Assembly: GCA_022791875.1 (NCBI GenBank)
Contig: JAAVZX010000024.1
Coordinates: forward strand, 1-64,000
Direction: 5' to 3'
Source: Oscillibacter sp.
GTDB taxonomy: Bacteria; Bacillota; Clostridia; Oscillospirales; Oscillospiraceae
Length of the DNA stretch: 64,000 bases
The translations under genes were made by a program, and so were the position numbers. Shown in pieces: positions 49,858-63,743 of the stretch. Positions within the stretch are counted from its first letter, which is position 1. Each line of letters opens with the position of its first letter. The notes beneath the pieces were generated by a model. It did no database searches. It had not been told where the DNA came from and saw only the letters and a program-made list of their open reading frames with translations.

Positions 49858-49942
49858 GGGGGCCTCCGGCGGGTTCCTTTTCTCGAGAGAAAAGGAACCG
49901 AAAAGAGCTTTAACTGTGGAAAATCGTACCGATTTTCCACGG
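49858..49942. repeat. Family B repeat, copy 5 (single module)
   Basis: GGGGCCTCCGGCGGGTTCC, the TTTTCTCGAGAGAAAAGG core, AAAAGAGCTTTAAC and the hairpin TGTGGAAAATCG / CGATTTTCCACG. It lies 160 bases ahead of the phage-like cluster. Confidence 0.8.
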
Positions 49943-49987
49943 GGCCGGATGTTCCCTCTCCGGCGCGATTGCCTTCAAGCATGAAAG

Positions 49988-50015
49988 GCAGGCGGCATTG
50001 CCGCCTGCTTTTTTT
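49988..50015 (+). terminator. Strong terminator just upstream of the phage-like cluster
   Basis: Stem GCAGGCGGC / GCCGCCTGC, loop ATT, then TTTTTTT on the plus strand. No plus-strand gene precedes it within 500 bases; it either ends an unseen short transcript or insulates the cluster. Confidence 0.8.
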
Positions 50016-50041
50016 GCATTTTTTGAAAAAATTTCCCCGGA

Positions 50042-50061
50042 GTTGCACACAAACGTGCAAC
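50042..50061 (+). promoter_or_regulatory. Palindrome GTTGCAC-N6-GTGCAAC, site 1
   Basis: Seven-base arms around ACAAAC, 43 bases before the terS ATG. An identical arrangement precedes the second structural block (54146-54165), so it is a candidate operator or activator site for the cluster. Confidence 0.6.
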
Positions 50062-50104
50062 TTTTCCCCCTTTGGAGCCCATTAGTGAAAGGGGGCGCTA
50101 AAGA

Positions 50105-50575
50105 ATGAATGCGCGGGAGAATGTGGAAAAGTTCTGCGGGGTGTACCTGCGGACCATGGACCCGGACCGGGCGGCGGAGGCCAGCGGTGTTCGGGACGGG
50201 TATGATTTTTTGAGGCGGCAGACCGTAGGAGGCCGGCTGGAGAAGATGCGCCGGGGGACCTCAGACCAGCTCCGCCGTGAGGATGTGCTCCGCCGTCTGG
50301 CCCAGCTGGCTTTCGGGCGGGCCAACGACGCGGTGGCCCTGGCTCTGCGGCCCGGGGAGCTGAATCCGGAGACGCTGGACCTCTCCGCCGTCAGCGAGTT
50401 CAAGGTGACGGACAAGGGCGGCGTGGAGGTGAAGCTGGCGGACCGGGTGCGGGCGATGGAAACCCTGTGTACCCTCCTGGAGCAGCAGGGAAACGGGGAG
50501 CTGGAAGCGCTCTTCCAGGCCCTGGAGGGCGCGGGGAAGCGGCTGGAAGGAGCGGACGATGACGGGGACGCGTGA
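50105..50575 (+). CDS. terS: Phage terminase small subunit
   Basis: 156 residues. FCGVYLRTMDPDRAAEASGVRDGYDFLRR is an N-terminal helix-turn-helix like those of PBSX-type small terminases (core MDPDRAAEASGV), followed by a helical central part and an acidic tail. It recognises DNA for packaging and recruits the large subunit. The ribosome binding site AAAGGGGGCG is nearby. The last 17 bases overlap the large-subunit gene. First gene of the cluster. Confidence 0.8.
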   Translation: MNARENVEKFCGVYLRTMDPDRAAEASGVRDGYDFLRRQTVGGRLEKMRRGTSDQLRREDVLRRLAQLAFGRANDAVALALRPGELNPETLDLSAVSEFKVTDKGGVEVKLADRVRAMETLCTLLEQQGNGELEALFQALEGAGKRLEGADDDGDA

Positions 50576-51821
50576 GCAGCGGATGGCCTTTTCCGAGAAG
50601 CAGCTGCAAGTCATGAGCTGGTGGCGCACAAACCGCTGGGACGCCCTGATCTGCGACGGAGCCGTCCGGAGCGGGAAGACGTTTTCTATGGGTCTGTCCT
50701 TCTTCCTGTGGGCACAGACGTGCTTTAACGGGCGGCAGTTCGGCCTCTGCGGGAAGACGATTTCCTCTATGCGCCGGAACCTCCTGGCGGAGCTGACGCC
50801 TTACCTGCGCCGTCTTGGGATGAGCCTGCGGGAGCGCCGCACGGAAAATTTGCTGATCGTCCGTTTTGGGGGGCGCGAGAACCGCTTCCTCCTGTTCGGG
50901 GGCCGCGACGAGTCCAGCGCGTCCCTGATCCAGGGGGCGACGCTGGCGGGGGTCCTGCTGGACGAGGCGGCGCTGATGCCCCGTTCCTTCGTAGAGCAGG
51001 CGATTGCGCGGTGCAGCGTGAACGGGAGTAAGATCTGGTTCAACTGCAACCCGGAGACGCCCTCCCACTGGCTGTACCAGGAGTGGGTACTCAAGGCCAA
51101 GGAGCGCCGCGCGCTCCACCTCCATTTCACCATGGAGGACAATCCAGCCCTGTCGGAGCGGATTCGGGAGCGCTACAGGCGCAGTTATTCAGGGGCTTTT
51201 TACCGCCGCTTTGTTCTTGGGGAGTGGACGGTGGCCGAGGGCCGTGTCTACGACTTCTATGACCCGGAGGAAGACGCGTCGGAGGTCCCGCTGGGCCCCT
51301 TTGACGAGTGGCGGATCTCCGTGGACTACGGGACGGTGAACCCCGCGTCCTTTGGGCTCTGGGGGCTTTACGGGGGCGTGTGGTACAGGGTGGAGGAGTA
51401 TTACTACGACTCCCGGAAGCAGGGGCGTCAGAAGACGGACGAGGAATATGCCGAGGACTTAACGCGCCTGGCGGCGGGGCGGGAGATCCGGCGCGTCGTA
51501 GTGGACCCGTCAGCGGCCAGCTTCATCCAGGCCCTGCAAAGGCGGGGCTTCACCGTAGTCAAAGCGGAGAACGACGTAACAGACGGAATCCGCGTAACGG
51601 CGGACCTGCTGAGGCGGCGGGAGCTTGTGGTCTGTATGACCTGCACGGACTGCCTGCGCGAGTTTGCGTCCTACTGCTGGGACCAGCACGGAGAGCGCGA
51701 CGCGCCGAGAAAGCGGGACGATCACGCCATGGACGATTTGCGCTACTTCGCCATGGACATAGCAAAGGGAGGCAGCGGCTTCGCCGCCGTGTCCGTAGAG
51801 CGGACCGGCTGGCTTGGCTGA
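50559..51821 (+). CDS. terL: Phage terminase large subunit
   Basis: 420 residues. ATPase domain with Walker A GAVRSGKT (residues 34-41) and Walker B LAGVLLDEAAL (near 123-133), coupling motif WFNCNPE, then the RNase H-like nuclease domain with DYGTVNPAS, VVDPSAA and the final DDHAMDDLRYF acidic cluster. All catalytic parts appear intact, so packaging could still work. It matches PBSX-type terminases in length. Confidence 0.95.
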   Translation: MTGTREQRMAFSEKQLQVMSWWRTNRWDALICDGAVRSGKTFSMGLSFFLWAQTCFNGRQFGLCGKTISSMRRNLLAELTPYLRRLGMSLRERRTENLLIVRFGGRENRFLLFGGRDESSASLIQGATLAGVLLDEAALMPRSFVEQAIARCSVNGSKIWFNCNPETPSHWLYQEWVLKAKERRALHLHFTMEDNPALSERIRERYRRSYSGAFYRRFVLGEWTVAEGRVYDFYDPEEDASEVPLGPFDEWRISVDYGTVNPASFGLWGLYGGVWYRVEEYYYDSRKQGRQKTDEEYAEDLTRLAAGREIRRVVVDPSAASFIQALQRRGFTVVKAENDVTDGIRVTADLLRRRELVVCMTCTDCLREFASYCWDQHGERDAPRKRDDHAMDDLRYFAMDIAKGGSGFAAVSVERTGWLG

Positions 51822-51845
51822 GACTTGAAAGGGAGTTGATAAACT

Positions 51846-53012
51846 GTGAAATTATGGAAGAAACGAACCCCGCCGGAGGCCGCCGCGCCCCCCGCTCCGG
51901 ATGCCTGCGTGCAGCTCCGGGACGGGGAGCGGCACCCCTTCGGGGCCCTGCGTGAGTACGTCCCCATGGGCCGCGGGGAGGCGCGGCTTTACCGCGCCGT
52001 GCGGGAGGCCGTGCCGGTGGTGGACGCGGCCATTTATAAGCTGATCCGCATGGCCGGAGGCGTCCGCGCGGCCTGCGGCGACCCGAAAGCGGAGGCGGAA
52101 TTGGCGCAGTTCCTGCGGCGCGTGCCGGTGGGACGGGGACAGTTCGGGATCAACGCGTTCCTGGACCAGTACCTGGATTCCCTGCTGACCTGCGGACAGG
52201 CCGTTGGGGAAATCCTGCCCGCCGCCGGAAACCGGGAGATCGCCGCCCTGCTCTGCGGACGGGTAGAGGATATTCAGATCCAGGAGGGGGCGCATCCCCT
52301 GGACTTCACCATCTGCGGCTGGGACGAAAGCGGACAATTGGCCCCGCTGCCCTACCAGAACCTGCTCCTGTTCACACCTCTGAACCCGGAGAGCGGGAAC
52401 CCCTGCGGCGTCTCCCTCCTGCGCTCCCTGCCCTTCCTGGCGGAAATCCTGATGAAGATCTACCACACCATCGGTGTGAACTGGGAGCGCTGCGGAAACG
52501 TGCGCTTCGCCGTGACCTGCAAGAACAGCGACGGCGCGGGGGCCGCGGAACGGGGGCGTCTGCTGGCCGGGGAGTGGTCCCGGGCTATGCGGGAATCCTC
52601 CGGGCGGGGCGTCCGGGACTTCGTGGCCGTGGGGGACGTGGACATCCGCGTCATCGGCGGCGACGCCCCTATCCTGGACAGCCAGGTCCCCGTCCGCCAG
52701 ATCCTGGAGCAGATCGTGGCCAAGACGGGCATTCCGCCCTTCATGCTGGGGCTGAGCTGGAACTCCACCGAGCGGATGAGTACCCAGCAGGCCGATATGC
52801 TGACTACGGAAGTGACGGCCCTGCGGAGGACGCTGACGCCTGTTGTGGAGCGGATCTGCGGCCTCTGGCTGAAAATGCACGGGTATACCTGCGGCTGTGA
52901 AGTCCAGTGGGACGACATCAACTTGCAGGACCAGGTGGAGGAGGCGCGGGCCGCCCTGTTCCGCGAACAGGCGCGGAAGCTGAGACTCGAAAACGACTTA
53001 ATGGAGGGATGA
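51846..53012 (+). CDS. Phage portal protein
   Basis: 388 residues, on the short side (PBSX-type portals are about 400-500). Begins KLWKKRTPPEAAA, with AIYKLIRMAGG and DFTICGWDESGQ in the clip/wing part, then the stem-like helix with GIPPFMLGLSWNSTERMSTQQADML, typical of portals. The dodecamer forms the DNA gate at the capsid vertex. GAAAGGGAG precedes the start. The downstream protease gene begins inside or 6 bases after its stop. Confidence 0.88.
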   Translation: MKLWKKRTPPEAAAPPAPDACVQLRDGERHPFGALREYVPMGRGEARLYRAVREAVPVVDAAIYKLIRMAGGVRAACGDPKAEAELAQFLRRVPVGRGQFGINAFLDQYLDSLLTCGQAVGEILPAAGNREIAALLCGRVEDIQIQEGAHPLDFTICGWDESGQLAPLPYQNLLLFTPLNPESGNPCGVSLLRSLPFLAEILMKIYHTIGVNWERCGNVRFAVTCKNSDGAGAAERGRLLAGEWSRAMRESSGRGVRDFVAVGDVDIRVIGGDAPILDSQVPVRQILEQIVAKTGIPPFMLGLSWNSTERMSTQQADMLTTEVTALRRTLTPVVERICGLWLKMHGYTCGCEVQWDDINLQDQVEEARAALFREQARKLRLENDLMEG

Positions 53013-53017
53013 ATCAC

Positions 53018-53875
53018 ATGGAACACGGAACGGATATTCATACGGATTTGGCGCTCATCAACCAGTGGGCGAAGACGGATTTGATCGCCGATCAGGTCTA
53101 CACCTTCACGGTGCGCCTCTGTGATAACGAGGTGGACCGGGACTATGAGCGCTTCGACGGGGCGTGTCTGGAAGAGCTGGGGCGGCTTTTCCTGGGAAAA
53201 TGCGGAATCTTTGACCACCAGTGGTCCGCGGCGGGGCAGACCGCGCGGATTTACCGCACGGAGGTGGTGCGGGAGGAAGCTGTTACCACCGCCGCCGGGG
53301 ACGGGTACTGCTGGCTCAAGGGCTGGGCGTACCTGCTTCGGACGGAGAAAAACGCGGACCTGATCGCGGAGATCGAGGGCGGAATCAAGAAGGAAGTCAG
53401 CGTCGGGTGCAGCATGGGCCGGGGCGTGTGCTCGATCTGCGGCGCGGAGGACGGCTGCTGCGGCCACGTCAAGGGGCAGGAATACGAGGGACGCCTGTGT
53501 TTCCGGGAACTGCGGGAGCCGTTGGACGCCTATGAGTGGTCCTTCGTGGCCGTGCCTGCCCAGCGGCGGGCAGGGATTCTGAAACGCTTCGGCGCGGAGC
53601 GGGATGAGGAGCGTGTTCTGCGGAAGGAGGCGGAGCTGGGGCGGAAGTATCTGGGCGGGCTGCGGCGCGAGGTGGTCCGGTTGGCGATGCTGGCCGACGA
53701 GGGGCTGGACGGCGCGGCGTTTGCAAGGGCCGTGGGACAGATTGGGGAGGCCGATTTGCTGGAGCTGAGGAAGAGCTTTGAGGGGCGCGTGGCACGGCTG
53801 TTTCCGGCGGTTCCGCAGTTGAGGGAGAGGCCGGTTGGCGGCGCAACGGATAGGGGGGAGGATTTTTTGGTTTAG
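53018..53875 (+). CDS. Putative prohead protease / capsid maturation protein
   Basis: About 285 residues from ATG 53018 (GGAGGG is 8-9 bases upstream; ATG 53009 overlapping the portal stop is possible). KKEVSVGCSMGRGVCSICGAED and the later DAYEWSFVAVPAQRRAGI resemble the Ser-containing strands of phage head proteases (XkdF-like). The insert CSICGAEDGCCGH adds a cluster of cysteines that could bind zinc, which I do not know from the family. Place between portal and capsid supports the role. The C-terminal helical part (about 200-270) may act as scaffold. Confidence 0.6.
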   Translation: MEHGTDIHTDLALINQWAKTDLIADQVYTFTVRLCDNEVDRDYERFDGACLEELGRLFLGKCGIFDHQWSAAGQTARIYRTEVVREEAVTTAAGDGYCWLKGWAYLLRTEKNADLIAEIEGGIKKEVSVGCSMGRGVCSICGAEDGCCGHVKGQEYEGRLCFRELREPLDAYEWSFVAVPAQRRAGILKRFGAERDEERVLRKEAELGRKYLGGLRREVVRLAMLADEGLDGAAFARAVGQIGEADLLELRKSFEGRVARLFPAVPQLRERPVGGATDRGEDFLV

Positions 53876-53911
53876 GGATGGGGGGTGTTGGGGGTGCATG
53901 TCAGGCGGGCA

Positions 53912-53956
53912 TGGTGGTTGCGGGGGACGGGCCGCCGAGGGCGGCGGCCCCTACGG
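53912..53956 (+). repeat. Family C repeat, copy 2
   Basis: GGTGGTTGCGGGGGA, hairpin GGGCCGCC / GGCGGCCC, CCTACGG. Stem sequence differs from copy 1 but still pairs. It lies inside the phage-like cluster. Confidence 0.7.
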
Positions 53957-54011
53957 TGTGCATCCCAGGCGATCATGGCAGTAGTTGTGAAGCACCCCAC
54001 GAACAAATTCG

Positions 54012-54119
54012 GCGGGGAAACGAAGTTTTCCCGCAGTTAAAGCTCTTTTCGGTTCCTTTTCTCTCGAGAAAAGGAACCCGCCGGAGGCCCCCGTCCTTCG
54101 TCCCCCGCAGGGCTGGCAG
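54012..54119. repeat. Family B repeat, copy 6, inside the phage-like cluster
   Basis: Hairpin GCGGGGAAAC / GTTTTCCCGC, AGTTAAAGCTCTTTTCGG, the TTTTCTCTCGAGAAAAGG core, CCGCCGGAGGCCCCCG and a CCCCCGCAGGG end. With family C copy 2 it fills the 358-base gap 53876-54233 together with the palindrome at 54146. Confidence 0.8.
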
Positions 54120-54145
54120 GCACTTTCAAAAAAATTTTTGCGGCA

Positions 54146-54165
54146 GTTGCACGCAGACGTGCAAC
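54146..54165 (+). promoter_or_regulatory. Palindrome GTTGCAC-N6-GTGCAAC, site 2
   Basis: Same seven-base arms and same six-base spacing (GCAGAC) as site 1 at 50042, here 68 bases before the decoration-protein start. No T-run follows, so it is not a terminator. Confidence 0.6.
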
Positions 54166-54233
54166 TATGGGCGGTTTGGCGGGGTAGGTTGAGGGGAGTT
54201 TTTCTCTATCTTATGAATTTGGAGGTTTTTTGT

Positions 54234-54575
54234 ATGAGCTGGTTTACCGGGATTGGTCAGTGGGCCGCTACGTTTTCGTGTGAGGGCGTGGAAAACGGGC
54301 AGGTGGTGAAGGTTTCCGGCAATGGGGCGGTGGCGTCCTGTGGGGCCGGAGAGGGCATCGGGGGCGTTGTGGTGTCCCTGGGGCGGGATAAGAAAGCCTG
54401 CGGTGTGGCGCTGGGCGGGATCGTGTGCGTGCCCTATACGGGGGACGCGCCTGCGGTGGGGTGGTCTGGGCTGTCCGCGGACGGCGCTGGGGGCGTGGCC
54501 TGCGACGCTGATGGGCGGGCTTACCTGGTGGTGGACGTGGACGACGTTGGGAAAATGGTTACGTTCGCGCTGTGA
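54234..54575 (+). CDS. Putative capsid decoration protein (DUF2190-like)
   Basis: 113 residues from ATG 54234 with TTGGAGG upstream. Gly/Val/Ala-rich, beta-type sequence (GNGAVASCGAGEGIGGVVVSLG, shown in part) ending LVVDVDDVGKMVTFAL, similar in plan to small capsid-stabilising proteins encoded directly before major capsid genes. It begins the second block of the cluster, behind the palindrome site 2. Confidence 0.6.
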   Translation: MSWFTGIGQWAATFSCEGVENGQVVKVSGNGAVASCGAGEGIGGVVVSLGRDKKACGVALGGIVCVPYTGDAPAVGWSGLSADGAGGVACDADGRAYLVVDVDDVGKMVTFAL

Positions 54576-54606
54576 TAAAATTTGAAATTGAAACGGAGGG
54601 CTTGAT

Positions 54607-55638
54607 TTGAGTTACCACTATGAAACAATTTCCCTTGAAAAGGGCATGTACGGGCGGGGCGGGCGCAGCTTTTCCCAGACGCTGGAAGAGCTGGACCCCA
54701 GTGAGCGCTATCGCGGGACCGCGCTGGAATCCCTGGACGCCTTTCAGCGCCAGCTGAAACGCTTCGACATTCACGTCAAAGGCGCGGGGAGCGACCTTGT
54801 GGAGAAATTCTTCTACTCCGCGGACTCCGCCGTGCTGTTCCCCGAGTTCGTGGCCCGGGTGGTGCGGCAGGGCATGGAGGAGGAGAGCATTCTCCCCCTG
54901 ATCACCGCCACCGTCACCAAATTCGACGGCATGGACTACCGATCCATCGCCTCCACCCCCTCTGAAGAGGAAAAAAAGCTGCTGCGGGTGGAAGAGGGCG
55001 CGGAAATCCCCCGCACGGTCATCCGCACCCAGGAAAACCTGGTGCGCCTCCACAAGCGGGGCCGGATGCTGGTGGCCTCCTACGAGGCGATCCGCTGGCA
55101 GCGCCTGGACCTCTTCTCCGTAACCCTGCGCCAGATCGGCGCGTACATCGGCCGGATGCACCTCCAGGACGCCGTGGAGGTCCTGCAGAACGGCGACGGA
55201 AACGGCAACCCCGCGGACATCTACGCCGTGGGCACCGCGCCCATCACCGGCTCATCCGGGACCCTGAGCTACAACGCCCTGCTGGACTTCTGGAGCCAGT
55301 TCGACCCGTACCGCATGAACACGCTGCTGGTGGGCGGCGACACGATGCTGGGCCTCCTTCGGATGCCCGAGTTCCAGAACCCCCTGACGGGCCTGAATTT
55401 CCAGGGCACGGGCACGCTGGACACGCCCCTGGGGGCGAAGCTGCTGCGGACCTCCGCCATGCCCTCCGGGATGCTGATCGGCCTGGACAAGAACTACGCG
55501 CTGGAGCAGATCTGCGCGGGGGACGTGTGCGTGGAATACGACAAGCTGATTGACCGCCAGCTTGAACGGGCGGCGATCACGTCCGTGTCCGGCTTCTCGA
55601 AGCTGTTCCGGGACGCGTCCAAGGTGCTGATGGTGTGA
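54607..55638 (+). CDS. Phage major capsid protein
   Basis: 343 residues starting at TTG 54607 (GGAGGGC upstream). HK97-fold features by position and pattern: N-terminal helical arm, then KFDGMDYRSIASTP and EIPRTVIRTQENLVRLHKRG, ending with DKLIDRQLERAAITSVSGFSKLF. No delta-domain is obvious ahead of it, so scaffolding may lie in the protease. Place between decoration and connector genes fits. The stop overlaps the following gene's ATG. Confidence 0.8.
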   Translation: MSYHYETISLEKGMYGRGGRSFSQTLEELDPSERYRGTALESLDAFQRQLKRFDIHVKGAGSDLVEKFFYSADSAVLFPEFVARVVRQGMEEESILPLITATVTKFDGMDYRSIASTPSEEEKKLLRVEEGAEIPRTVIRTQENLVRLHKRGRMLVASYEAIRWQRLDLFSVTLRQIGAYIGRMHLQDAVEVLQNGDGNGNPADIYAVGTAPITGSSGTLSYNALLDFWSQFDPYRMNTLLVGGDTMLGLLRMPEFQNPLTGLNFQGTGTLDTPLGAKLLRTSAMPSGMLIGLDKNYALEQICAGDVCVEYDKLIDRQLERAAITSVSGFSKLFRDASKVLMV

Positions 55639-55985
55639 TGGATTTGAAGGAACGGGTGATTTCCGCTGCACGGATCGTGTGCGGCGCGGGGGAGGAAGAG
55701 ATGCCGGTGCTGGAAGCGCTGTGCGGCGCGGCGGCGGACCGCTGGCTTTCCCGCCTGCGGTCCGGCGTGGCCCCCGCGGACTGCGAAGAGGCGCTGATCT
55801 GCGCGGCGGCGTTCACCGCGGCGGCGGACCTGGCGGCGGGGCAGGGCGGCGTGACCGCCTTCTCCGCCGGGGCGCTGTCCGTAAAAGCGGGCACAAACAC
55901 GGGGGAACTGCGGCGGGCCGCGGAGCGGCTGATGGAGCCGTTCGTGACGCCGGGGGACATCTTTTTACAGGGGGTGCGGACATGA
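55638..55985 (+). CDS. Head-tail connector protein
   Basis: 115 residues from ATG 55638, one base shared with the capsid stop. All-helical with Ala-rich middle (EEALICAAAFTAAADLAAGQ), and the end SAGALSVKAGTN, as in adaptor proteins (gp6/gp15-like) that sit under the portal. Assignment depends mainly on order. Confidence 0.6.
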   Translation: MDLKERVISAARIVCGAGEEEMPVLEALCGAAADRWLSRLRSGVAPADCEEALICAAAFTAAADLAAGQGGVTAFSAGALSVKAGTNTGELRRAAERLMEPFVTPGDIFLQGVRT

Positions 55986-56305
55986 TGCGGAACTGGGTGC
56001 GAACGCTGCTGGAGCGCTGGGGTGAGGACGTGTCGATCTCCTGTAAAGACGGCGCTCCGCGTACTACCAAAGCCTTGATCCATCCTGTCAGCGAGCGGCG
56101 CGAGGGCGTGCCGGAGTCCGTAACCCCCGTTGGGTGGACCGATGAACGCCTCTGGCTGTATGTGGGGCTGGATGAGCTGCATGACGGCGACACGCTCTGC
56201 TGGCGGGATTTGACATTCCGCGTGCGGAGCGGTCGGGGCTTCTTCCTCGGCGGGGCGCTGTGCCACTGGCAGGCGGTGCTGGAACAGGAACGAGGTGCGT
56301 TATGA
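55982..56305 (+). CDS. Head completion / stopper protein
   Basis: 107 residues from ATG 55982, overlapping the previous stop. Begins MMRNWVRTLLERWGEDV and is beta-rich afterwards (RLWLYVGLDELHDGDTL, shown in part; DLTFRVRSG). The size and position match stopper proteins of PBSX-like phages (XkdH region). The next gene starts inside its stop. Confidence 0.6.
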   Translation: MMRNWVRTLLERWGEDVSISCKDGAPRTTKALIHPVSERREGVPESVTPVGWTDERLWLYVGLDELHDGDTLCWRDLTFRVRSGRGFFLGGALCHWQAVLEQERGAL

Positions 56306-56790
56306 AGGAGCTGACGCAGATTCGGGACGCCGTAATCACCGCCCTGCAAGGTGCGGGCCTGCGGTCCGAAGCCGCGTACCCGGACCGGCGGGTCCCCAAG
56401 TGTACGGAAGCGCTGGCCTCCGTGTCCGTAGGAGCGGCGGAGGGGCGCGCCCTGGGCTTCTGCAACTACCTGGGCGAGTGCGCGGACGAACACGGCGGCC
56501 TGCGGGAGCTGTACGGAAAGCAGCTGGAGGGCCAGATAACGGTAGAAATCCGCGCGGAGCGGGCCCAGACCTGTGAGGACGGCTGTGAAACTGCGTCCGG
56601 CGTGCTTCTGGGAAGCCTGCCGGAGGGCATCGCGCCGGGTGAACTGCGCTGGGAAGCCATGGCCTGGGAGCGGGAGACGGGTCTGTTCCTGCGGAAGGGA
56701 ACCCTGAGCTGTCAGGCCCTGTTCACCGCCTGGGCCGGCGAAGACAGCGAATTCCTTGACTTTATCCTGAAAGGAGCTATGAAAACGTGA
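56302..56790 (+). CDS. Tail completion / terminator protein
   Basis: 162 residues from ATG 56302. KELTQIRDAVITALQGAGL is an N-terminal helix; the rest alternates strands and helices (EGQITVEIRAERAQ, shown in part). Position before the sheath gene matches tail terminator proteins (XkdI/XkdJ region). The sheath GTG overlaps its stop. Confidence 0.55.
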   Translation: MKELTQIRDAVITALQGAGLRSEAAYPDRRVPKCTEALASVSVGAAEGRALGFCNYLGECADEHGGLRELYGKQLEGQITVEIRAERAQTCEDGCETASGVLLGSLPEGIAPGELRWEAMAWERETGLFLRKGTLSCQALFTAWAGEDSEFLDFILKGAMKT

Positions 56791-57848
56791 ACGGAATCGT
56801 ACATGAGAGGCCGGGTGTATACTCGGCATACGACGCCTCGGCGGCGGTGTCCGGAGGGCAGGCCGCAAAGGTGGTAGGCGTGGCGGCCAAAGCCGCCCAG
56901 GGGAGCGTGGGCAAGGCTGTAACCGTGACCGGCTACGCCGCCGGGGCGGCGGCATTCGGCGAGGACATCGACCCGGGAATGTGTACCCTGCTGCGGCTGC
57001 TGTTTGCCAACGGGGCGTCGGTGGTGAGGGCCGTGCGGGTGTCCGACGACGGGACGGACGAGGACTACCAGGCCGCGTTTGAGGCCCTCGGGAACCTGGA
57101 CGTGCAGGTGATGATCTGCGACAGCGGGGAGGAATCCGTGCAGCAGCTCCTGCGGGAGGCGGTGGAGAGCGCCTCCGCCCTGCGCCGGGAGCGGATCGCC
57201 GTGGCGGGGGGAAGCGGGTGTACCGTGGACGAGCTGATCGCCCGGGCCGAGGCGCTCAACAGCGAGCGCATGGTGCTGGTGGGCCCGGACGCGCTGGACG
57301 CCGGCGGCGGAAGCCTGGGGGGCGTGTTCGCGGCGGCGGCGGTGGCCGGGGCCATCGCTTCGGAGGGCGATCCGGCGGTGCCGCTGAACGGCGTGGAGCT
57401 GCGGGGCCTTTACGGCCTGGCGGAGGACTATAACGACAACGAGATCGACCTGCTGGTCCGGGGCGGCGTGACGCCGCTGGAGGCCGCGGAGGGCGTCATT
57501 TCCCCTGTACGGGGCATCACCACGAGGACGAAAACCGGCGGCGCGGCCGACACCGCCTGGCGGGAGCTGACCACGATCCTGATCGTGGACCACGTGATTC
57601 CGGCGGTGCGGGCGGCGATCCGGAGCAAGTTCGCCCGGAGCAAGAACAACGCCCGCAGCCGCGCCGCAATCCGCTCCCAGGTGATCGTGGAGCTGGAGAA
57701 GCAGATGGCGGCGGAGGTCATCGACGGCTACGACAGCGTGTCCGTCCGGGCCTCCGAGGACGACCCGACGGTCTGCCTGGTGGAGTTCGGCTTCTCCGTG
57801 GCCCACGGCCTGAACCAGGTGTATCTGACGGTGCATATTTCGATTTAA
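56787..57848 (+). CDS. Contractile tail sheath protein (XkdK-like)
   Basis: 353 residues, start GTG 56787. Opens IVHERPGVYSAYDASAAV, the usual first strand of sheath proteins (RPGVY). The conserved C-terminal half carries RGITTRTKTGGAADTAWRELT (core GITTRTKTG) and LVEFGFSVAHGLNQVYLTV, which form the inter-subunit handshake. It is shorter than XkdK (about 466), lacking most of the outer domains. Presence of sheath shows that the particle is of contractile type. Confidence 0.9.
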   Translation: MNGIVHERPGVYSAYDASAAVSGGQAAKVVGVAAKAAQGSVGKAVTVTGYAAGAAAFGEDIDPGMCTLLRLLFANGASVVRAVRVSDDGTDEDYQAAFEALGNLDVQVMICDSGEESVQQLLREAVESASALRRERIAVAGGSGCTVDELIARAEALNSERMVLVGPDALDAGGGSLGGVFAAAAVAGAIASEGDPAVPLNGVELRGLYGLAEDYNDNEIDLLVRGGVTPLEAAEGVISPVRGITTRTKTGGAADTAWRELTTILIVDHVIPAVRAAIRSKFARSKNNARSRAAIRSQVIVELEKQMAAEVIDGYDSVSVRASEDDPTVCLVEFGFSVAHGLNQVYLTVHISI

Positions 57849-57863
57849 GAAAGGGGTGCGGAT

Positions 57864-58247
57864 ATGAAGGGATTTCCCACCAGCGCGGACATCTATCTGG
57901 AGATGGACGGCAAGAAAATCGCGGTGGTGCAGAGCTACACGGCAAAGGCGTCGAAGTCGTCCCAGAGCGTGGAGGCGTTCGGCGAAAGCGAGCCGGTAGC
58001 GACCATCGAGGGCCAGAAGAAGTACACCCTGGAGCTGACGCGCCTGTACGCCACAGACAGCGCCGTGTCCGACAACATCAACTTCTACGATTTGACGGAC
58101 TTCTCCCTGGTGATCTGCAAGCCGGACCGCCGGATCATCTACAGCGGGTGCCAGTGGGGCGCGATCCAGGAGGACGGCCAGCTGAACGCCATGGTGGCGG
58201 AGCGGGTCACGGTAGTAGCCGCGAAGCGGATCGAGACGACGGCATGA
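57864..58247 (+). CDS. Tail tube protein (XkdM-like)
   Basis: 127 residues with AAGGGG before the ATG. SADIYLEMDGKKIAVVQS and QKKYTLELTRLYA are typical XkdM-family strands; the tube is the inner cylinder on which the sheath contracts. Start of next gene overlaps its stop (ATGA). Confidence 0.85.
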   Translation: MKGFPTSADIYLEMDGKKIAVVQSYTAKASKSSQSVEAFGESEPVATIEGQKKYTLELTRLYATDSAVSDNINFYDLTDFSLVICKPDRRIIYSGCQWGAIQEDGQLNAMVAERVTVVAAKRIETTA

Positions 58248-58564
58248 GGCAGATCGACGAGCTGCGGCCCCTGACAGCAGGGCGTATCCTGGAGATATGG
58301 CGCATGTGCCGCGAGACGAGCAGGGACCCTCTGGAACGGACGCTGATCTGCAACGCGAGGATACTGGCCGAGTGCTGCCTGTACCAGGGCGGAGCGGTAT
58401 ACGAGGGGCCGGAGGAGGTCCTGCGAGACTTGACCGGCCGGGAGATTGCGCGCCTGCTGACGCGCCTGGCGGAGGACGACCGTGAAGCGGAGCGGCCCTC
58501 CGTCCCTCCGGCGGAGAATCCGACCTTTGACGCGGCACGGTTTGAAGCACTGAAAGAGAGGTGA
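58244..58564 (+). CDS. Tail assembly chaperone-like protein (XkdN position)
   Basis: 106 residues. Helical, RQIDELRPLTAGRILEIW, then CRETSRDPLERTLICNARILAECC, and a Pro-rich tail. Position between tube and the next gene matches XkdN-type chaperones, which in phages often have a frameshifted longer product; no obvious slippery heptamer is seen near its end. Confidence 0.5.
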   Translation: MRQIDELRPLTAGRILEIWRMCRETSRDPLERTLICNARILAECCLYQGGAVYEGPEEVLRDLTGREIARLLTRLAEDDREAERPSVPPAENPTFDAARFEALKER

Positions 58565-58569
58565 CAGGT

Positions 58570-59241
58570 ATGGACTATATACGGGAGGAATTTACACGGC
58601 AGCGCCGCGTATTAGAGGCGCTGCTGACCGGCGGCGGGGGCGGGGACGCCGCCCGGAATCCCACGGAGGCCCAGACCGTTTTTTCCCGCAGAAGCGGGGA
58701 AGGGCCGCGCCCTAGCGCGGAACGGCGGACCACGTGGCTTGCGGACGGGGATGCCGCTTCCAGGGAACCGGAAGCGCTGGGCGCATGGGAGGCGGTACGC
58801 CGGAGGACTGCCATCTTCGATAGTACGTCTGGCACCAGCCGCGCAAGGGCGCCGGAACACGGATCAAACCCGGCGGGGCAGCGAAGCGTCCCCCCGCCCC
58901 TCTGGGAGGCGCGTCAGCCCGCCGAAGGGACAGGCGGTGGGCCTGACGCGGAGGGAACCCAAACGGCGCGAGCATGGGAGCAATCCATAGCGGCGGAACG
59001 GATCGCGCCGGTTCCTGCGAGCGGGCTTCCCGCCGCATGGAGGCCGGGAGGCGGTGGGGACACATCGCTTCCCGCGCTGATGGGCCGGCCTGCATGGCTG
59101 ACAGAGGGCGCATTCACAGCCGCCCAACCTCCCCGAACGGAAACGATAGAGGAACCGGCGGACATGGCTAGCGTCCGCACGGTATCGCGTGCGATCCAGC
59201 GTGATGCGCGCCGCTATGACGGCGGCTTCATGCTGTACTGA
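58570..59241 (+). CDS. 223-residue low-complexity protein in the tape-measure position
   Basis: Starts at ATG 58570 (GAGAGGTGACAG upstream). A short N-terminal helix (MDYIREEFTRQRRVLEALL) and a C-terminal segment (SVRTVSRAIQRDARRYDGGF) flank about 170 residues rich in Gly, Ala, Pro, Arg and Glu with no hydrophobic or coiled-coil regions. In PBSX order a tape measure of more than 1000 residues belongs here. Sequence-wise it does not look like one. It might be a minimal tape measure, an assembly adaptor or the remnant of one. No other open frame of size in this interval on either strand fits better. Confidence 0.65.
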   Translation: MDYIREEFTRQRRVLEALLTGGGGGDAARNPTEAQTVFSRRSGEGPRPSAERRTTWLADGDAASREPEALGAWEAVRRRTAIFDSTSGTSRARAPEHGSNPAGQRSVPPPLWEARQPAEGTGGGPDAEGTQTARAWEQSIAAERIAPVPASGLPAAWRPGGGGDTSLPALMGRPAWLTEGAFTAAQPPRTETIEEPADMASVRTVSRAIQRDARRYDGGFMLY

Positions 59242-59329
59242 CGCGCCGCACCAACAGGCATCGAGGGCTTGAAGGCCCTCTTGACATAGAAATTTTGCAA
59301 GACAACGGCAAAAGCCAACAAAAACGGAG

Positions 59330-59453
59330 TGATCTGCCAGGGTCCAGGGAGGCGCTTGCCTCCCTGGTGGGAGTCCAGAGGGCAAAGCCCTTTGGCCGCC
59401 GGAGGCCCCCCCGTCCCCCGTCCTTCGTCCCCCCGCGGGGACTGGCAGGCACT
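59330..59453 (-). repeat. Family A repeat, copy 7, inside the phage-like cluster
   Basis: Reverse orientation: CTGCCAGGG, hairpin 2 CCAGGGAGGC / GCCTCCCTGG, hairpin 1 CCAGAGGGC / GCCCTTTGG, GGCCGCCGGAGGCCCCC, ending CCCCGCGGGGACTGGCAGGCAC. It fills the 59242-59477 gap. Confidence 0.85.
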
Positions 59454-59477
59454 TACATTATTAAGGGAGGGATTTAC

Positions 59478-60062
59478 GTGCGTTTGACGCCGATGCGGTT
59501 CAAGAGCTTTACGTGGCCGCACAATCCGGAGGTGTGTACAGTGGAGCTGAAGCGGCGGATTGCGGTGCAGAGGGTGCCGTATGGAGGGTGTGTTTTGCAG
59601 GACTTGGGGCGGAATTTTCGGGTGATGCGGGGAGAGGGGGTGTTTGCGGGAGAGGGGGCGTATGAGCAGTTCCGGAGTCTGGCGGCAGTGTTTCAGGAGT
59701 CGGGGCCGGGGCTGCTGGTGCATCCGGTGTGGCAGACGGAGCGGGCTTACTTCGTGTCGCTGGAGATGACGGAGAAGCCGCTGCCGGACTATGTGCGGTA
59801 CAGCTTCGTGTTCTGGGAGGACTGGGGCGGGTATGACGGGAAACTTACAGAGGTTCCCGGCGCTGCTGGTTCCGGAGAGATTGGGGTTGGGACTGGGGGA
59901 GCCAGTTCTTCTGTTGGCACGGTGTACGCCGTGCGGAAAGGGGACACCCTCTGGGGCATCGCCAAGCGGTACGGCGTGAAGCTGGCAGACCTGATTGCTA
60001 TGAACCCCCAAATCAAGAACCCCAATTTGATATATCCCGGAAACGAGGTGAAAATCCCATGA
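59478..60062 (+). CDS. LysM-domain baseplate hub protein (XkdP-like)
   Basis: 194 residues from GTG 59478 (AAGGGAGGG upstream; ATG 59493 possible). FKSFTWPHNPEVC opens a domain as in XkdP; the C-terminal about 48 residues are a LysM motif (VYAVRKGDTLWGIAKRYGVK and NPNLIYPGNEVKIP). In contractile phages this protein sits near the hub and may bind peptidoglycan. Overlaps the next gene by four bases. Confidence 0.85.
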   Translation: MRLTPMRFKSFTWPHNPEVCTVELKRRIAVQRVPYGGCVLQDLGRNFRVMRGEGVFAGEGAYEQFRSLAAVFQESGPGLLVHPVWQTERAYFVSLEMTEKPLPDYVRYSFVFWEDWGGYDGKLTEVPGAAGSGEIGVGTGGASSSVGTVYAVRKGDTLWGIAKRYGVKLADLIAMNPQIKNPNLIYPGNEVKIP

Positions 60063-60997
60063 TTGCCCAGCTTTACACCTGCGACCACCACATCTACGAC
60101 CTACCTGTGCTGCTCACCTGGACGGTGACGCACACCGGCTCCGTTCCCTGCGACAGCTTTTCCGTGTCCTTCGTCTACGAGGGGGACATGGGCGAAGTCC
60201 TGGAAAAAGCCTCCGGCTTCCTGGCCTGGGACCAGGGCCAAATCATGCTTCGGGGCATCGTAGACGAATACGCCGTGGAGCTGGGCCCCGGGGGCTTGAC
60301 GGCCTCCGTCACCGGACGCGGCTATGCGGCCCGTCTTCTCGACAACGAATCCCGCCCCATCACCTACGAATCCGCGACCCTCTCCGAAATCCTCCGCAAC
60401 CACGCGGAGCCCTACGGCGTCACCTGCCGCGAAGCGGCGGACCTGCGCGCCGGTTCCGTCTACACGGTAGCGGCGGGCACAAGCCAGTGGAAGGCCCTGG
60501 ACAGCTTCTGCCGCACCTACGGCGGCTTCTCCCCCCGCTTCACCCGGGACGGCCTCCTTCTGGCGGTCCCCGAAGGGGACGGCTGCCGCCGCCTCACCAT
60601 CGACGCCGCCGCCCCGGTCCTCTCCTGCGTCCTGCGGGAGGACCGCTACGGCGTCCTGACGGAGGCGCTGGTCATCGACAAGACCCGCAACGCGAGCTAT
60701 TCCGTAAAAAACCAGGCGCTTATCGACAAAGGCGGACAATGCCGCCGCGTGATCTACACCCCCGGCCAAAGCACCTGGGCGGCCATGCGCTACACCGGCG
60801 AATACCAAATCGAGCGCTCCAGGGAAGAGGAACGGACCGTAACCCTGACCCTCCCCGGGAGTTTCCCGGCATTCCCCGGCGACCGCGTCATCCTGGACCT
60901 GGAGCGGATGGGCCTGAGCGGCGAATTCCGCGTGTCGGAGGCAGAGAACACCTTCTCCGCGAAAAGCGGTTCCATATCGACCCTGACCCTGCAATAA
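60059..60997 (+). CDS. Baseplate hub protein (XkdQ-like)
   Basis: 312 residues. The pattern TVTHTGSVPCDSFSVSFVYEGDM and GIVDEYAVELGPGGLTASVTGRGYAARLLDNE (parts of longer strands) match the XkdQ/gpD-like hub fold. It forms the ring between tube end and spike. Normal length for the family (about 320). Confidence 0.85.
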   Translation: MIAQLYTCDHHIYDLPVLLTWTVTHTGSVPCDSFSVSFVYEGDMGEVLEKASGFLAWDQGQIMLRGIVDEYAVELGPGGLTASVTGRGYAARLLDNESRPITYESATLSEILRNHAEPYGVTCREAADLRAGSVYTVAAGTSQWKALDSFCRTYGGFSPRFTRDGLLLAVPEGDGCRRLTIDAAAPVLSCVLREDRYGVLTEALVIDKTRNASYSVKNQALIDKGGQCRRVIYTPGQSTWAAMRYTGEYQIERSREEERTVTLTLPGSFPAFPGDRVILDLERMGLSGEFRVSEAENTFSAKSGSISTLTLQ

Positions 60998-61021
60998 AAA
61001 AGAAAGCAAAGGAGCAAGCAC

Positions 61022-61438
61022 ATGTGGCTATCAAAGCAAATGAAGACCCCGGCGGCGACCACCGACGCGGACCTGGGCGTCACCACCATCTCCGGCGACA
61101 GCGTAGGCGTCGTGACCCGCGGCGAGGTCCGCTCCCTGCCGGTCTACGGCCCCGGCGGCTACGTATGGCTTCCGGAAAACGGCTCCGCAGTCCTGGTGAT
61201 GAAGGGGGGCCCCGGCGGTGAGGAGCAGTGCGTGTCGGGCATGAAGCAAAAGCAGCCCCCCGCGGGAATGCGCCCCGGCGAGGTATACATCCACGGCCCC
61301 GGCGGAAATGCCGTTTACCTCCGGAGCAACGGAAGCATAGAGATCGCAGGCGGCACGATCAGCCTCACCGGCGGCACCGTGAGCATCCACGGAAGCCTCC
61401 TGGTGAACGGCCAGCCGTACCGCCCCTGCCATTGCTGA
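61022..61438 (+). CDS. Baseplate spike protein (gpV-like)
   Basis: 138 residues. An OB-like N-terminal part (TTISGDSVGVVTRGEVRSLPV in part, GPGGYVWLPENG) and a C-terminal triple beta-helix repeat (SIEIAGGTISLTGGTVSIHG). It ends YRPCHC, a Cys-His-Cys tip. Phage spike tips often bind iron or zinc with His, so this end may be a metal knot, an inference. Short for the family, with no PAAR extension. Confidence 0.75.
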   Translation: MWLSKQMKTPAATTDADLGVTTISGDSVGVVTRGEVRSLPVYGPGGYVWLPENGSAVLVMKGGPGGEEQCVSGMKQKQPPAGMRPGEVYIHGPGGNAVYLRSNGSIEIAGGTISLTGGTVSIHGSLLVNGQPYRPCHC

Positions 61439-61449
61439 GGAGGCCCGCC

Positions 61450-61803
61450 ATGGAACTGGAGCTGCGAAACGGCGACTACGTCCCCGACGGCGTGGGCGGC
61501 CTGCGCCGCGTATCCGGCCGGGAGGCCCTGACCCAGCGCATCCTGTACCGCCTGACGGCCCGCCGCGGCGCGTTCCCCTTCTGGGAAACCCTGGGGAGCC
61601 GCCTCTGGGAACTGGGGAAGCACCCCGCCGCCGAGCGTCCCGCCGCCGCCCGCCAATACGTGGCGGAGGCCCTCACGGAGGAGCCGGACATAGAGGTGGA
61701 GTCGGTGACGCTCCACGAAGCCCCCGGCGGACGCGCCGAAGTGAGCGTCAGCCTGCGCCACAACGGCGCGGCCCTTCCCCTGACCGTAGAAGTGACCATG
61801 TAA
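61450..61803 (+). CDS. Baseplate wedge gp25-like protein (XkdS-like, DUF2634)
   Basis: 117 residues from ATG 61450 (GAGGAGG upstream). EALTQRILYRLTARRGAFPFWETLGSRLW is the gp25-type helical signature (in part), followed by RQYVAEALTEEPDIEVESV. It is a component of the inner baseplate wedge that ties sheath initiation to the baseplate. Confidence 0.85.
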   Translation: MELELRNGDYVPDGVGGLRRVSGREALTQRILYRLTARRGAFPFWETLGSRLWELGKHPAAERPAAARQYVAEALTEEPDIEVESVTLHEAPGGRAEVSVSLRHNGAALPLTVEVTM

Positions 61804-61831
61804 GCGGGAAAACCGCGAGAGAGGAGCGACA

Positions 61832-62893
61832 TTGAGAAGCATAGAAGAGATCTACGAAGCGCTGCTGAACGCCTATACGGAGCGCGCGGGCTTCACCCCG
61901 GAAAGCGGCTGCGACCTGGCCGTCCGCCTCTGGGCCTCAGCGGCGGAGATCCAGTCCCTGGAGGCCCAGGCGGACTGGGTATTAAACCAGAGCTTCCCCC
62001 AGACGGCCCAGGGCATCCACCTGGACCGCCACGGCGAGATGCGCAATCTGCGCCGCACCCCCGCCACCCGCGCCGCCGGGACCCTGCGTTTTTCGGTCAG
62101 CGCGCCGCCGGTGGTGGACATCACGATCCCGGCGGGGACCGTGTGCATGACGGCGGACGAGGTGCGTTTTCAGACGGCGGCGGACACGGTGCTGGCGGCG
62201 GGAAGCACCTGGGCGGACGCCCCGGCGGAGGCCCTGGAGCCCGGAACGGGGGGCAACGTGGTGCCGGGGGCGGTGCGCTTCCTGACGGCCTGCCCCCTGG
62301 CCGTCACAGCGGTGACGAACCCCAACGCCTTCACCGGCGGCGCGGACCAGGAGGACGACGCCGCCTTCCGGACCCGGATTATGGAGAGCTACCACCGCCT
62401 CCCCAACGGGGCCAACGCCGCCTGGTACGAGGAGACGGCGATGAATTTTGCAGGCGTCACCGCCGCGAAAGCGGTGGGCCGCGCCCGCGGCATCGGGACG
62501 GTAGACGTATACGTGACAGGGGAGAACGGCCTGCCGGACCCAGATTTGCTGACCGCCCTGAAAGCGGAATTCCAGGAGAAGCGTGAAATCGCCGTGGACG
62601 TAGAGGTAAAGGCCCCCGCGCCCCAGCCGGTGAATGTGGCCGTGGCCGTCCTGGCGAAGGAGGGGGCGGACAAGGCGGCGGTCCTGGAGGCCGCAGGCCG
62701 CGCTGTCACGGATTTTTTCAGCGGGCGTCTTCTGGGACGCCCCGTCCGTCTTGCGGAGCTGGGGAGCCGCCTGTTCGCCCTGGAGGATGTGGAGAATTAC
62801 AGATTCACGTCCCCCACAGCCGACCTCCTCGCCGACAACACAATCCTCCCGGTCCTGGGCACGCTGAGCGTGACGGAAATGGAGGAGCCGTAA
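61832..62893 (+). CDS. Baseplate protein J (XkdT-like)
   Basis: 353 residues with TTG start at 61832 (GAGAGGAG upstream). Begins RSIEEIYEALLNAYTERAGF, has GCDLAVRLWASAAEIQSLEAQADW and the baseplate_J core QEDDAAFRTRIMESYHRLPNGANAAWYEETAM (in part). Normal length. gpJ forms the outer wedge where tail fibres usually attach. ATG of the next gene follows at once. Confidence 0.9.
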   Translation: MRSIEEIYEALLNAYTERAGFTPESGCDLAVRLWASAAEIQSLEAQADWVLNQSFPQTAQGIHLDRHGEMRNLRRTPATRAAGTLRFSVSAPPVVDITIPAGTVCMTADEVRFQTAADTVLAAGSTWADAPAEALEPGTGGNVVPGAVRFLTACPLAVTAVTNPNAFTGGADQEDDAAFRTRIMESYHRLPNGANAAWYEETAMNFAGVTAAKAVGRARGIGTVDVYVTGENGLPDPDLLTALKAEFQEKREIAVDVEVKAPAPQPVNVAVAVLAKEGADKAAVLEAAGRAVTDFFSGRLLGRPVRLAELGSRLFALEDVENYRFTSPTADLLADNTILPVLGTLSVTEMEEP

Positions 62894-63466
62894 ATGTACG
62901 AGGCATATTTAAGGGGGCTGCTGGCGCCCCTGGGGGTCTACGACCTGTCAGACAGCGCGGTCAACGCCGCGGAGCTCCACGCCCTGGGCCGGCTCATGGA
63001 CGCCGTCAGCGCGAAACTGGACGAAGCGGAACGGGAGTCCCATTTGACCACCGCGGAGGACGAGGGCCTCCGCCGCCGCGAGTCGCTCCTGGCCAGGAAG
63101 CCCGCGGCATCGACCCTCCAGGAGCGCCGCGCCGCCATAGCGGCCCTCTTCCAGATCGCGGGCGACAGCCTGACCCCGGAGGCCATCAACCGCACCATCC
63201 GAGGCTGCGGCATCCGCGCCAGAGCGACAGAAAAGGGAGACGGCGAAATCCGCATCACCTTCCCCGACAAGCCCGGCGTCCCCGACGAATTCGACAAAAT
63301 CCAGAAAATCATCCTGGATATCCTCCCCTGCCACCTGGCCGTCGAATTCTATTTCCGCTACCTGACCTGGCGCGAATGCGAAGCAGAGCGCTGCACCTGG
63401 CAGACCGTGCAGGCCTACCCCCACACCTGGCAGACCTTCCAGCTCTCCGTCCCGCCGGAAGACTAA
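62894..63466 (+). CDS. Tail protein XkdU-like (DUF2313)
   Basis: 190 residues. YEAYLRGLLAPLGVYDLSD and the TTAEDEGLRRRESLL region match DUF2313 (gpI/YmfQ-type), which joins baseplate J to fibres. In phages the fibre gene comes next, but here the plus strand has no further gene before a convergent host gene. Ends the cluster. Confidence 0.85.
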   Translation: MYEAYLRGLLAPLGVYDLSDSAVNAAELHALGRLMDAVSAKLDEAERESHLTTAEDEGLRRRESLLARKPAASTLQERRAAIAALFQIAGDSLTPEAINRTIRGCGIRARATEKGDGEIRITFPDKPGVPDEFDKIQKIILDILPCHLAVEFYFRYLTWRECEAERCTWQTVQAYPHTWQTFQLSVPPED

Positions 63467-63469
63467 TCG

Positions 63470-63580
63470 GCCTCCGGCGGGCGGGGGACGAGGGACGGGG
63501 GGCCTCCGGCGGCCAAAGGGCTTTGCCCTCTGGACTCCCACCAGGGGAAACGGTTTCCCCTGGACCCCGCCAGATCACCC
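63470..63580 (+). repeat. Family A repeat, copy 8 (variant hairpin 2), end of cluster
   Basis: GGCCTCCGGCGG twice, hairpin 1 CCAAAGGGC / GCCCTCTGG, hairpin 2 CCAGGGGAAAC / GTTTCCCCTGG as in copy 4, end CCCCGCCAGATCA. It follows the cluster's last stop codon by a few bases. Confidence 0.85.
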
Positions 63581-63743
63581 TGGACTATAACCCGAAGCAT
63601 CTATCAAAACCTGTGCTCAGAAGTCCAGGGTGCAAAGGGGGCAGTCTGTACTTTTGTAAATATTGATTCGCGATCACGTTTCCGCCGTTTCAATCACGGC
63701 GATCTGCATCCGGCGGGAACAACGGCGCTGAATTGGGGCATCT

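Follow-up and report, generated by a model that had tools for sequence, protein, structure and literature searches.

The DNA analysed here, a 64,000-nucleotide stretch of an Oscillibacter sp. genome (the window), carries between positions 50105 and 63466 a head-tail gene cluster of phage descent, with 19 plus-strand genes running from terS to a Mu gp48-like baseplate gene. Probably it is the main structural locus of a particle system that has been domesticated, is inherited vertically, extends over several loci and would act in the manner of a gene transfer agent (GTA). Its appearance is that of a gene-transfer machine owned by the host and not of a dying virus, because the likely attachment and lysis genes are found elsewhere behind the same DNA switch, a palindromic operator. 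The window covers the first 64 kb of a contig of 253 kb, in a genome of 2.95 Mb (85% complete) that has a single match for the Pfam family of the sheath and a single one for the TerL protein.

The genes suggest how such a system might operate. The head genes would package DNA through TerL and the portal, whose families appear intact, and the head would bear a short contractile tail with no tape measure, its length presumably set by a small low-complexity linker. The shared operator would switch on together the head-tail cluster and its internal capsid promoter, and with them a stand-alone holin/endolysin cassette, fibre-like genes and replication-type genes. Cells would then lyse and release the particles, which the fibre-like protein, often encoded tail-to-tail with an S-layer-type gene, probably steers to cells with a matching S-layer.

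Inheritance and selection

The portal gene was found once, and with no internal stop, in 44 of the 61 same-genus genomes (two of the matches are cut at contig ends) and in 24 of the 31 good ones. A profile search of the order located it in 70 of 394 genomes with one match each at E ≤ 1e-20, where one copy has to be read as one scored match because for some genomes only part of the first-look candidates was scored. The distances of portal and xkdF together track the RecA distances across 21 genomes (Mantel r 0.67, p 1e-4; r = 0.72 when the source genome is left out). The groups {G007, G028, G029}, {G018, G024} and {G008, G012} are common to both trees; G005, G015, G032 and G036 are mutually nearest by both measures, and the RecA tree places G033 and G000 among them with weak support. 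These loci are not independent samples, G033 and L006 being one genome and related species sharing their history.

In the G005–G032 pair, 17 cluster genes have a median dS of 0.32 and five host genes one of 0.35; for the same 17 cluster genes the median dN/dS is 0.21. The lowest dN/dS values belong to TerL, portal, capsid and tube (0.04–0.23) and the highest to the small connectors (up to 0.7). Vertical inheritance and conservation, as expected of a GTA, are both seen, with host and cluster trees agreeing in part only.

An initial annotation, made from the sequence, had offered two alternatives, a maintained particle with its release and control genes elsewhere or an eroding prophage. The first is supported by the 44 genomes and the low dN/dS, and the comparison did not give the random sites in few strains with elevated dN/dS that would have spoken against it; nor does a normal prophage surround the cluster and hold the missing genes just outside it. 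The second fits only some relatives (G017, L008 and L067). As to release and control, lysis and fibre-like genes do lie behind the same operator, and the regulator gene itself was not found.

The palindromic operator and the loci behind it

The palindrome GTTGCAC-N6-GTGCAAC precedes terS, the decoration/capsid genes, the lysis cassette, two fibre-like genes and replication-type genes. Exact matches to GTTGCACNNNNNCGTGCAACTWT in the window are operator 1, upstream of terS (50042–50064, plus strand), which has counterparts before terS in relatives, and operator 2, within the cluster and upstream of the decoration/capsid genes (54146–54168, plus strand). These two sites, counted on both strands, give four rows where 0.08 are expected. 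Over the whole genome GTTGCACNNNNNCGTGCAACTWT has eight exact rows, corresponding to seven sites (one matches both strands), and 15 rows are found with up to three mismatches versus three in the reversed control. Including a one-mismatch site on C44, eight distinct palindromes are present, of which seven lie upstream of intact genes and the eighth upstream of a decayed one: terS (50042), decoration/capsid (54146), the lysis cassette, fibre-like genes on C35 and C66 (75.9 kb), a RepA_N/DUF6017 gene (a DnaD-like helicase loader by PHROG), a DUF6291 and DnaB-helicase pair, and a decayed RepA_N copy. Common to the terS leader and that of the lysis cassette is GTTGCAC-N6-GTGCAACT followed by a C-rich/TTTGGAG/TAGTGAA stretch.

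Among the 61 genus genomes the exact palindrome occurs at 28 sites in 16 genomes, and at none in the reversed control. It stands before fibre-like genes at seven sites, terS at five (G023 by position only), lysis genes at three, capsid at one, DUF6291-like genes at three (one by Pfam, two by reading) and RepA_N at two (one decayed). The remaining sites precede a presumably DUF4417-like gene (two), a polysaccharide-deacetylase/nuclease-like pair (two), a similar leader without an open reading frame (ORF) of 40 aa (one) and another phage tail operon (one), and one is unassigned. At the paired sites (L408 in G061, L411 in G451) the palindrome lies between genes that read as polysaccharide-deacetylase-like and DNA-entry-nuclease-like, in one genome without and one with a portal. 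The other tail operon (L402, G023:C44, 2711–4800) has another sheath, for which Phage_sheath_1C falls just below the cut-off.

Less exact forms of the operator reach further. A palindrome score, devised after the motif had been seen, attains the 95% level of 960 control windows in 21 of 29 terS leaders and 20 of 31 fibre-like leaders, and the 99% level in 14 and 10, respectively; some of these high scorers are other hairpins (e.g. G033 and G036 before terS; G007_L361, G017_L378 and G022_L377 before fibre-like genes), and the per-locus controls overlap the operator sites themselves. A strict half-site precedes terS in 39 of 70 named loci (27 of the 38 with tail genes, 12 of the 32 others), compared with 1.1% of 3,500 control windows. 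Half-site or palindrome was also seen before five of the eight lysis loci examined (G000, G001, G021, G032 and G036). Within a genome the operators have a common lineage form: those of terS and of the fibre-like gene match at all 24 nt in G012, where both are unlike the consensus, and at 23 of 24 nt in G008. The operator offers a DNA motif for finding accessory genes.

The palindrome centre is placed about 30 bp before a -10-like box recognised by eye. With arms of 7 bp and a spacer of 6 bp, the palindrome would be a fitting site for the Crp/Fnr family, and a Crp/Fnr-type regulator gene is found next to the lysis cassette in G017 (L233 8865–9521); it was rejected as the regulator, since none of the proteins called in the compared regions is homologous to its product. 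RepA_N was likewise rejected as a universal regulator, its gene not being conserved with the cluster: in eight relatives the palindrome is upstream only of the G020 copy, which has a stop. As for the RepA_N and DnaB-type genes that follow the operator, they are either a new element or targets of the same regulator without relation to the particle.

The lysis cassette of this genome (XhlA, holin and endolysin) stands alone at 93.8–95.4 kb of the contig, about 30 kb past the cluster, among host genes that we read as gltX-like on one side and as coding for an SbcD-like nuclease on the other. Its families are CHAP and those of XhlA-type and endolysin proteins. Lysis genes directly follow gp48 in several relatives, as an XhlA-like gene, small membrane proteins and an endolysin-like gene in G012 and G014, as a holin-like and an endolysin-like gene in G011, and also in G008, G017 and G034. 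A core structural cluster with accessory loci, a GTA trait, is therefore found here, the shared operator linking the head-tail, lysis and fibre-like genes.

The proteins that we take to be fibre-like have 35–40 N-terminal residues in common (YxLxQWExxDRIxMEDFNxDN) and vary over the remainder. Their genes occur in 24 of 41 genomes, in one to three copies, and accompany the portal: 21 of 26 portal-positive genomes have one versus 3 of 15 portal-negative genomes (p 2e-4), and in the 19 good genomes the figures are 12 of 13 versus 1 of 6 (p 0.003). Across 26 regions 23 fibre-like genes were labelled, none being called in L418, L427 and L433, and 14 of the 23 are convergent, at 73–178 nt, with the gene of a large protein from one of two S-layer-type families. 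SLH domains were detected in four of five tested representatives of these large proteins; the fifth starts near the region edge and its N-terminus may be missing. In the genome studied here, the second fibre-like gene ends 80 nt from that of a 1402 aa SLH protein.

Gene order, tail and surroundings of the cluster

Protein families were assigned by Pfam and PHROGs matches, and several genes lacking a family match were named by their position in the xkd-type order; all features given below lie on the plus strand. A terminator-like hairpin (49983–50013; 14-pair stem and T run) would shield the cluster from upstream transcription, although terminator-like matches in the region do not exceed shuffles overall (12 versus a mean of 10.7). 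Downstream of operator 1 are terS (50105–50575; 156 aa, N-terminal domain kept; Terminase_2, 4.8e-6), terL (50559–51821; 420 aa; Terminase_6N, 4.6e-17; phrog_2, 2.8e-51), the portal (51846–53012; 388 aa; phrog_30703, 2.3e-176) and a head protein labelled XkdF-like (53009–53875; 288 aa; phrog_16951, no function assigned, 7e-120). Operator 2 is followed by a decoration-type virion protein (54234–54575; 113 aa; phrog_4588, 6.7e-25), the major capsid protein (54607–55638; 343 aa; Phage_capsid_4, 3.6e-13; phrog_3922, 8.9e-108) and three small head-tail connectors, the first two (55635–55985 and 55982–56305) without family match and named by position and conservation in relatives, the third (56302–56790) by position (phrog_25177, no function assigned, 9.8e-46).

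The tail begins with the sheath (56787–57848; 353 aa; Phage_sheath_1, 7.5e-16; phrog_279, 5.2e-47) and a tube named by position (57864–58247; 127 aa; phrog_27038, no function assigned, 4.2e-63; weak phrog_985), followed by an XkdN-like chaperone-type protein without family match, named by position and conservation (58244–58564). Beyond the slot protein described below, the baseplate comprises a LysM protein (XkdP-like; 59478–60062; LysM, 1.1e-15; DNA_circ_N, 3e-8), the hub (XkdQ-like; 60059–60997; 312 aa; phrog_177, 1e-38), a spike-like protein named by position (61022–61438; 138 aa; phrog_25991, no function assigned, 5.7e-44), a gp25-like wedge (61450–61803; phrog_43, 3e-7), a J-like wedge (61832–62893; Baseplate_J, 4.2e-53) and, as last gene, the Mu gp48-like protein (62894–63466; Phage_Mu_Gp48, 2.7e-9). 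This is the xkd-type order with a contractile tail that marks PBSX-like elements, the XkdN, XkdP and XkdQ names being given by position.

The coordinates of the initial annotation all hold, its lengths for sheath and portal are correct, and Pfam and PHROGs confirm its TerS, TerL, portal, capsid, sheath, hub, gp25-like wedge, J and gp48. The same-strand cluster that it described also stands, with 19 ORFs where it had counted 18; the extra one encodes the 226 aa slot protein. No integration, regulation or fibre family matched inside the cluster, as it had stated. It also gave lysis genes as absent; the best PHROG of the LysM protein is an endolysin family (phrog_380, 9.1e-18), but its DNA_circ_N domain and gene position fit a baseplate component.

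Contractile phages carry a tape-measure gene between the XkdN-like and LysM genes. None is found in the cluster, an absence that had been overlooked, and this place is occupied only by the slot protein (58561–59241; 226 aa; no family match), with a conserved N-terminus, a low-complexity linker and the C-terminal RDARRYDGGF. Slot proteins of relatives show the same build, a conserved start (of MDYIxxELxRQRxAL type in this genus), a low-complexity linker and a near-fixed C-terminus, R-D-A/S-R-R-Y-D-G-G-F, directly before the LysM gene. The motif is borne by 51 of the 60 loci in which tube and LysM genes were called, in proteins of 52–304 aa; the strict form is unmatched in nine, one of which (G011) is off by one letter. 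The tube–LysM gap of these 60 loci measures 164–1445 nt and contains no plus-strand ORF longer than 304 aa, so that a tape measure hidden in another frame was rejected. Tape measures scale at 1.5 Å per residue, and slot proteins of 144–304 aa would then mean a tail of about 20–45 nm.

Tail parts are reduced further in relatives, as surveyed in the best 80 of 93 named loci and in further loci. L042 and L047 have no room for a sheath, the cluster ending after the spike-like gene, and their slot proteins are just 52 and 56 aa long with the motif kept. G058 retains the baseplate and has lost sheath, tube and slot protein. Ruminococcus-type loci (L052–L065, L141) hold TerS, TerL, portal, capsid, the XkdF-like protein and a few small genes, some of which may be diverged tail genes, and sometimes a hub-like protein. 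That relatives hold on to head genes and shed parts of the tail speaks for selection on DNA packaging. The result is a natural series (no tape measure; no sheath; no sheath and tube; a head with few tail genes) in which the function of the tape measure can be put to the test.

The cluster is flanked by host genes that are shared within subclades, and a full prophage was rejected on this ground. By our reading of the sequences, not by database matches, AddAB-like genes lie to its left in five regions, a KdpDE-like pair in another group and a carbamate-kinase-like gene in a third, while the glg operon and a carboxypeptidase-like gene flank it in Flavonifractor, Flintibacter, Pseudoflavonifractor and Colidextribacter loci. 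The simple ORF caller picks some wrong starts in the regions of relatives, and flanking gene lengths are therefore approximate. A single thiM-side locus had been proposed; no flanking family is common with the 14 same-genus regions, G058 or the 13 named loci compared, and one common insertion site was rejected, several subclade-specific sites being present. The presumed glg (glycogen) operon beside Flavonifractor-type loci is also seen, on the other side and in the other orientation, at a head-only locus of other Clostridia (L044, L053; L018, L021, L026, L038, L048).

SnoaL-like, O-antigen ligase and glycosyltransferase genes lie downstream. No integration or excision gene was matched in the cluster or its next neighbours, as expected of a GTA, and the layout of a temperate prophage, with integrase, repressor, replication and lysis in one block with att repeats, was not found. 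A protein of Phage_integrase fold with a winged helix is placed 5.8 kb past the cluster (contig C66 69295–70569 = L003:9296–10570); it scores 27.7 against a Pfam cut-off of 27.1 and aligns only to profile positions 23–134 of 172. Such an integrase-like/winged-helix protein, or a fragment (L416), is near fibre/S-layer loci in four genomes or loci (C66 69295–70569, L416, L419 and L421). Two inverted intergenic repeats stand beside and inside the cluster, 49856–49923 with 54027–54094 (68 nt, 97%) and 59362–59411 with 63497–63546 (50 nt, 100%). One of them directly precedes the internal operator; the second promoter perhaps compensates for a repeat insertion.

Known systems and rival explanations

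PBSX of Bacillus subtilis likewise has defective phage-like particle genes on the chromosome and the same gene order, terS-terL-portal-capsid-sheath-tube-XkdN-XkdP-XkdQ-wedge-J-gp48. It differs in having a tape measure, XkdO, in the slot that holds none here; moreover, the present lysis and fibre-like genes are at separate loci behind a shared operator, and a single vertically inherited copy occurs across a family. RcGTA is siphovirus-like, whereas the tail here is contractile and the phage families differ. The window TerS, unlike that of RcGTA and other alphaproteobacterial GTAs, keeps an N-terminal domain, and replication-type genes are in the operator set. BaGTA of Bartonella is a GTA with phage-derived replication and, compared by description only, would be resembled if the RepA_N and DnaB-type genes take part. 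The host of FpGTA, Faecalibacterium prausnitzii, presumably belongs to the same order of bacteria. FpGTA, podovirus-like by its description and also compared by description only, has in the available text split loci, a structural operon and a lysis/fibre operon (PMC12946183). GTAs package random host DNA and not their own genome, and families for TerL, portal and capsid are present here. Vertical inheritance is shared with RcGTA and other alphaproteobacterial GTAs, and so is a core head-tail cluster with scattered structural and lysis genes, the lysis and other structural genes of GTAs lying at distant sites according to the available part of PMC11841831.

Several observations weigh against a GTA-like system. 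It is described here at the level of its genes, and gene content and synteny cannot definitively identify GTAs, as the available part of PMC11841831 states. Known GTAs have a TerS without the DNA-binding domain (PMC11841831; for RcGTA, PMC7947584; both as far as available), whereas in the window TerS the N-terminal domain is detectable, the Terminase_2 match starting at residue 9. The cluster is called GTA-like and is not filed as a GTA because of this domain. The first 50–60 TerS residues are missing in four of ten alignment rows (L010, L022, L029 and L042), where an operator half-site lies 43–55 bp before the shorter terS start.

Further points of this kind come from distribution and regulation. 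In its own family the portal was found in 21 of the 41 genomes sampled and is missing from the other 20, and 8 of the 70 order-wide portals contain one stop. The portal and RecA trees conflict for several genomes, the source genome among them: G000 pairs with G033 by RecA and with G020 by portal, and G006 and G011 also shift. Decay is seen in G017, which lost the stretch from the portal to the start of the sheath, in L008 (the portal-to-capsid part) and in L067 (most of the cluster). Presence of the exact palindrome shows no significant association with that of the portal (13 of 44 portal-positive versus 3 of 17 portal-negative genomes, p 0.52), either because operators vary by lineage or because the regulator has other targets. 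The strict half-site precedes only 13 of 30 fibre-like genes (compared with 2.3% of 1,800 control windows), no sigma-70 promoter was found at the operator in the promoter scan, and the RepA_N gene does not accompany the cluster. A third fibre relative of the same genome (C36) lacks both N-terminus and operator, and for the fibre-like proteins there is no Pfam match and the PHROGs matches are weak, so that their label, which no database gives, is putative.

It is possible, if doubtful, that the particle is a PBSX-like killer, packaging host DNA but serving as a bacteriocin, whose variable fibres fit the S-layer types of competitors. The contractile tail with its baseplate, the xkd-like order, the variable C-termini of the fibre-like proteins and their linkage to S-layer-type genes would all agree with this. 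Killer particles usually lose the head, and the reverse is seen here: there is no tape measure, and some lineages lose tail parts and keep head and packaging genes. The layout of a tailocin, with head genes gone and an intact tail, was not found, the head genes being present and under selection. No immunity gene is among the Pfam matches of the cluster, to which that search was limited. PBSX itself behaves as a tailocin, its DNA not being injected (PMC12946183, available part). Delivery of host DNA to kin is favoured over such killing on the strength of gene content, since other lineages retain the head and packaging genes and drop parts of the tail.

An eroding prophage remnant, of which by chance only structural genes are left, is very improbable and for this genus already contradicted. 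Compactness, the lack of an integrase, the internal deletions of G017, L008 and L067 and the single stops of some order-wide portals fit erosion, but a stop-free single copy in most genomes of the genus, purifying selection, host-like dS, and a conserved operator with lysis and fibre-like loci behind it do not. Hardly more credible is a satellite or phage-borne cluster run by a helper phage whose regulator binds the palindrome. Replication-type genes do have palindromes upstream, as does another phage tail operon in G023; however, the lysis, fibre-like and head-tail genes sit among host genes, the cluster follows the host tree, and 49400–64000 contains no direct repeat of at least 30 nt, a threshold that shorter att sites would escape. 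A protein-injecting contractile system (eCIS-like) that keeps its head by inertia is extremely improbable, since despite a complete baseplate with spike-like and hub proteins, TerL, portal and capsid are under strong purifying selection and no eCIS-type ATPase or effector is among the Pfam matches of the cluster.

The GTA-like reading bears on packaging already seen in the gut. The available part of a 2026 human stool study (PMC12946183) counts 25 events of GTA-like packaging, of which 17 are in Ruminococcaceae, three in Oscillospiraceae and three in Christensenellaceae; four metagenome-assembled genomes were searched, one of them Oscillospiraceae, and a strong candidate operon is named there in one, F. 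prausnitzii. For Oscillospiraceae this part gives no operon, a gap for which the cluster described here is a candidate, and the Ruminococcus-type loci could be the source of the packaging seen in Ruminococcus. Among the matches listed in the open-licence PMC set, no title or abstract describes the cluster, the slot protein or the operator. The portal scan also matched 38 IMG/VR contigs (L143–L180), several of which span only genes of this cluster; a virus database thus contains clusters of this kind. GenBank stool records with the cluster resemble a Mexican VLP (virus-like particle) study (PMC8361208), in whose main text, as far as available, the accession prefix is absent, and were not used as evidence.

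Tentatively, the system may be a kin-targeted DNA-exchange machine of gut Oscillospiraceae, with a head, a contractile tail devoid of tape measure, a fibre inherited beside the S-layer gene that it recognises, and one regulator firing lysis, replication initiator and helicase. Since the fibre gene is inherited beside the S-layer gene, particles would reach cells of the same surface type, and the linkage predicts who receives the particle. If so, the replication initiator and helicase could amplify DNA for packaging, and the GTA-like packaged DNA of Oscillospiraceae seen in human stool could stem from this machine. The cluster provides a conserved candidate locus for GTA-like packaging in Oscillospiraceae, together with its likely accessory genes.

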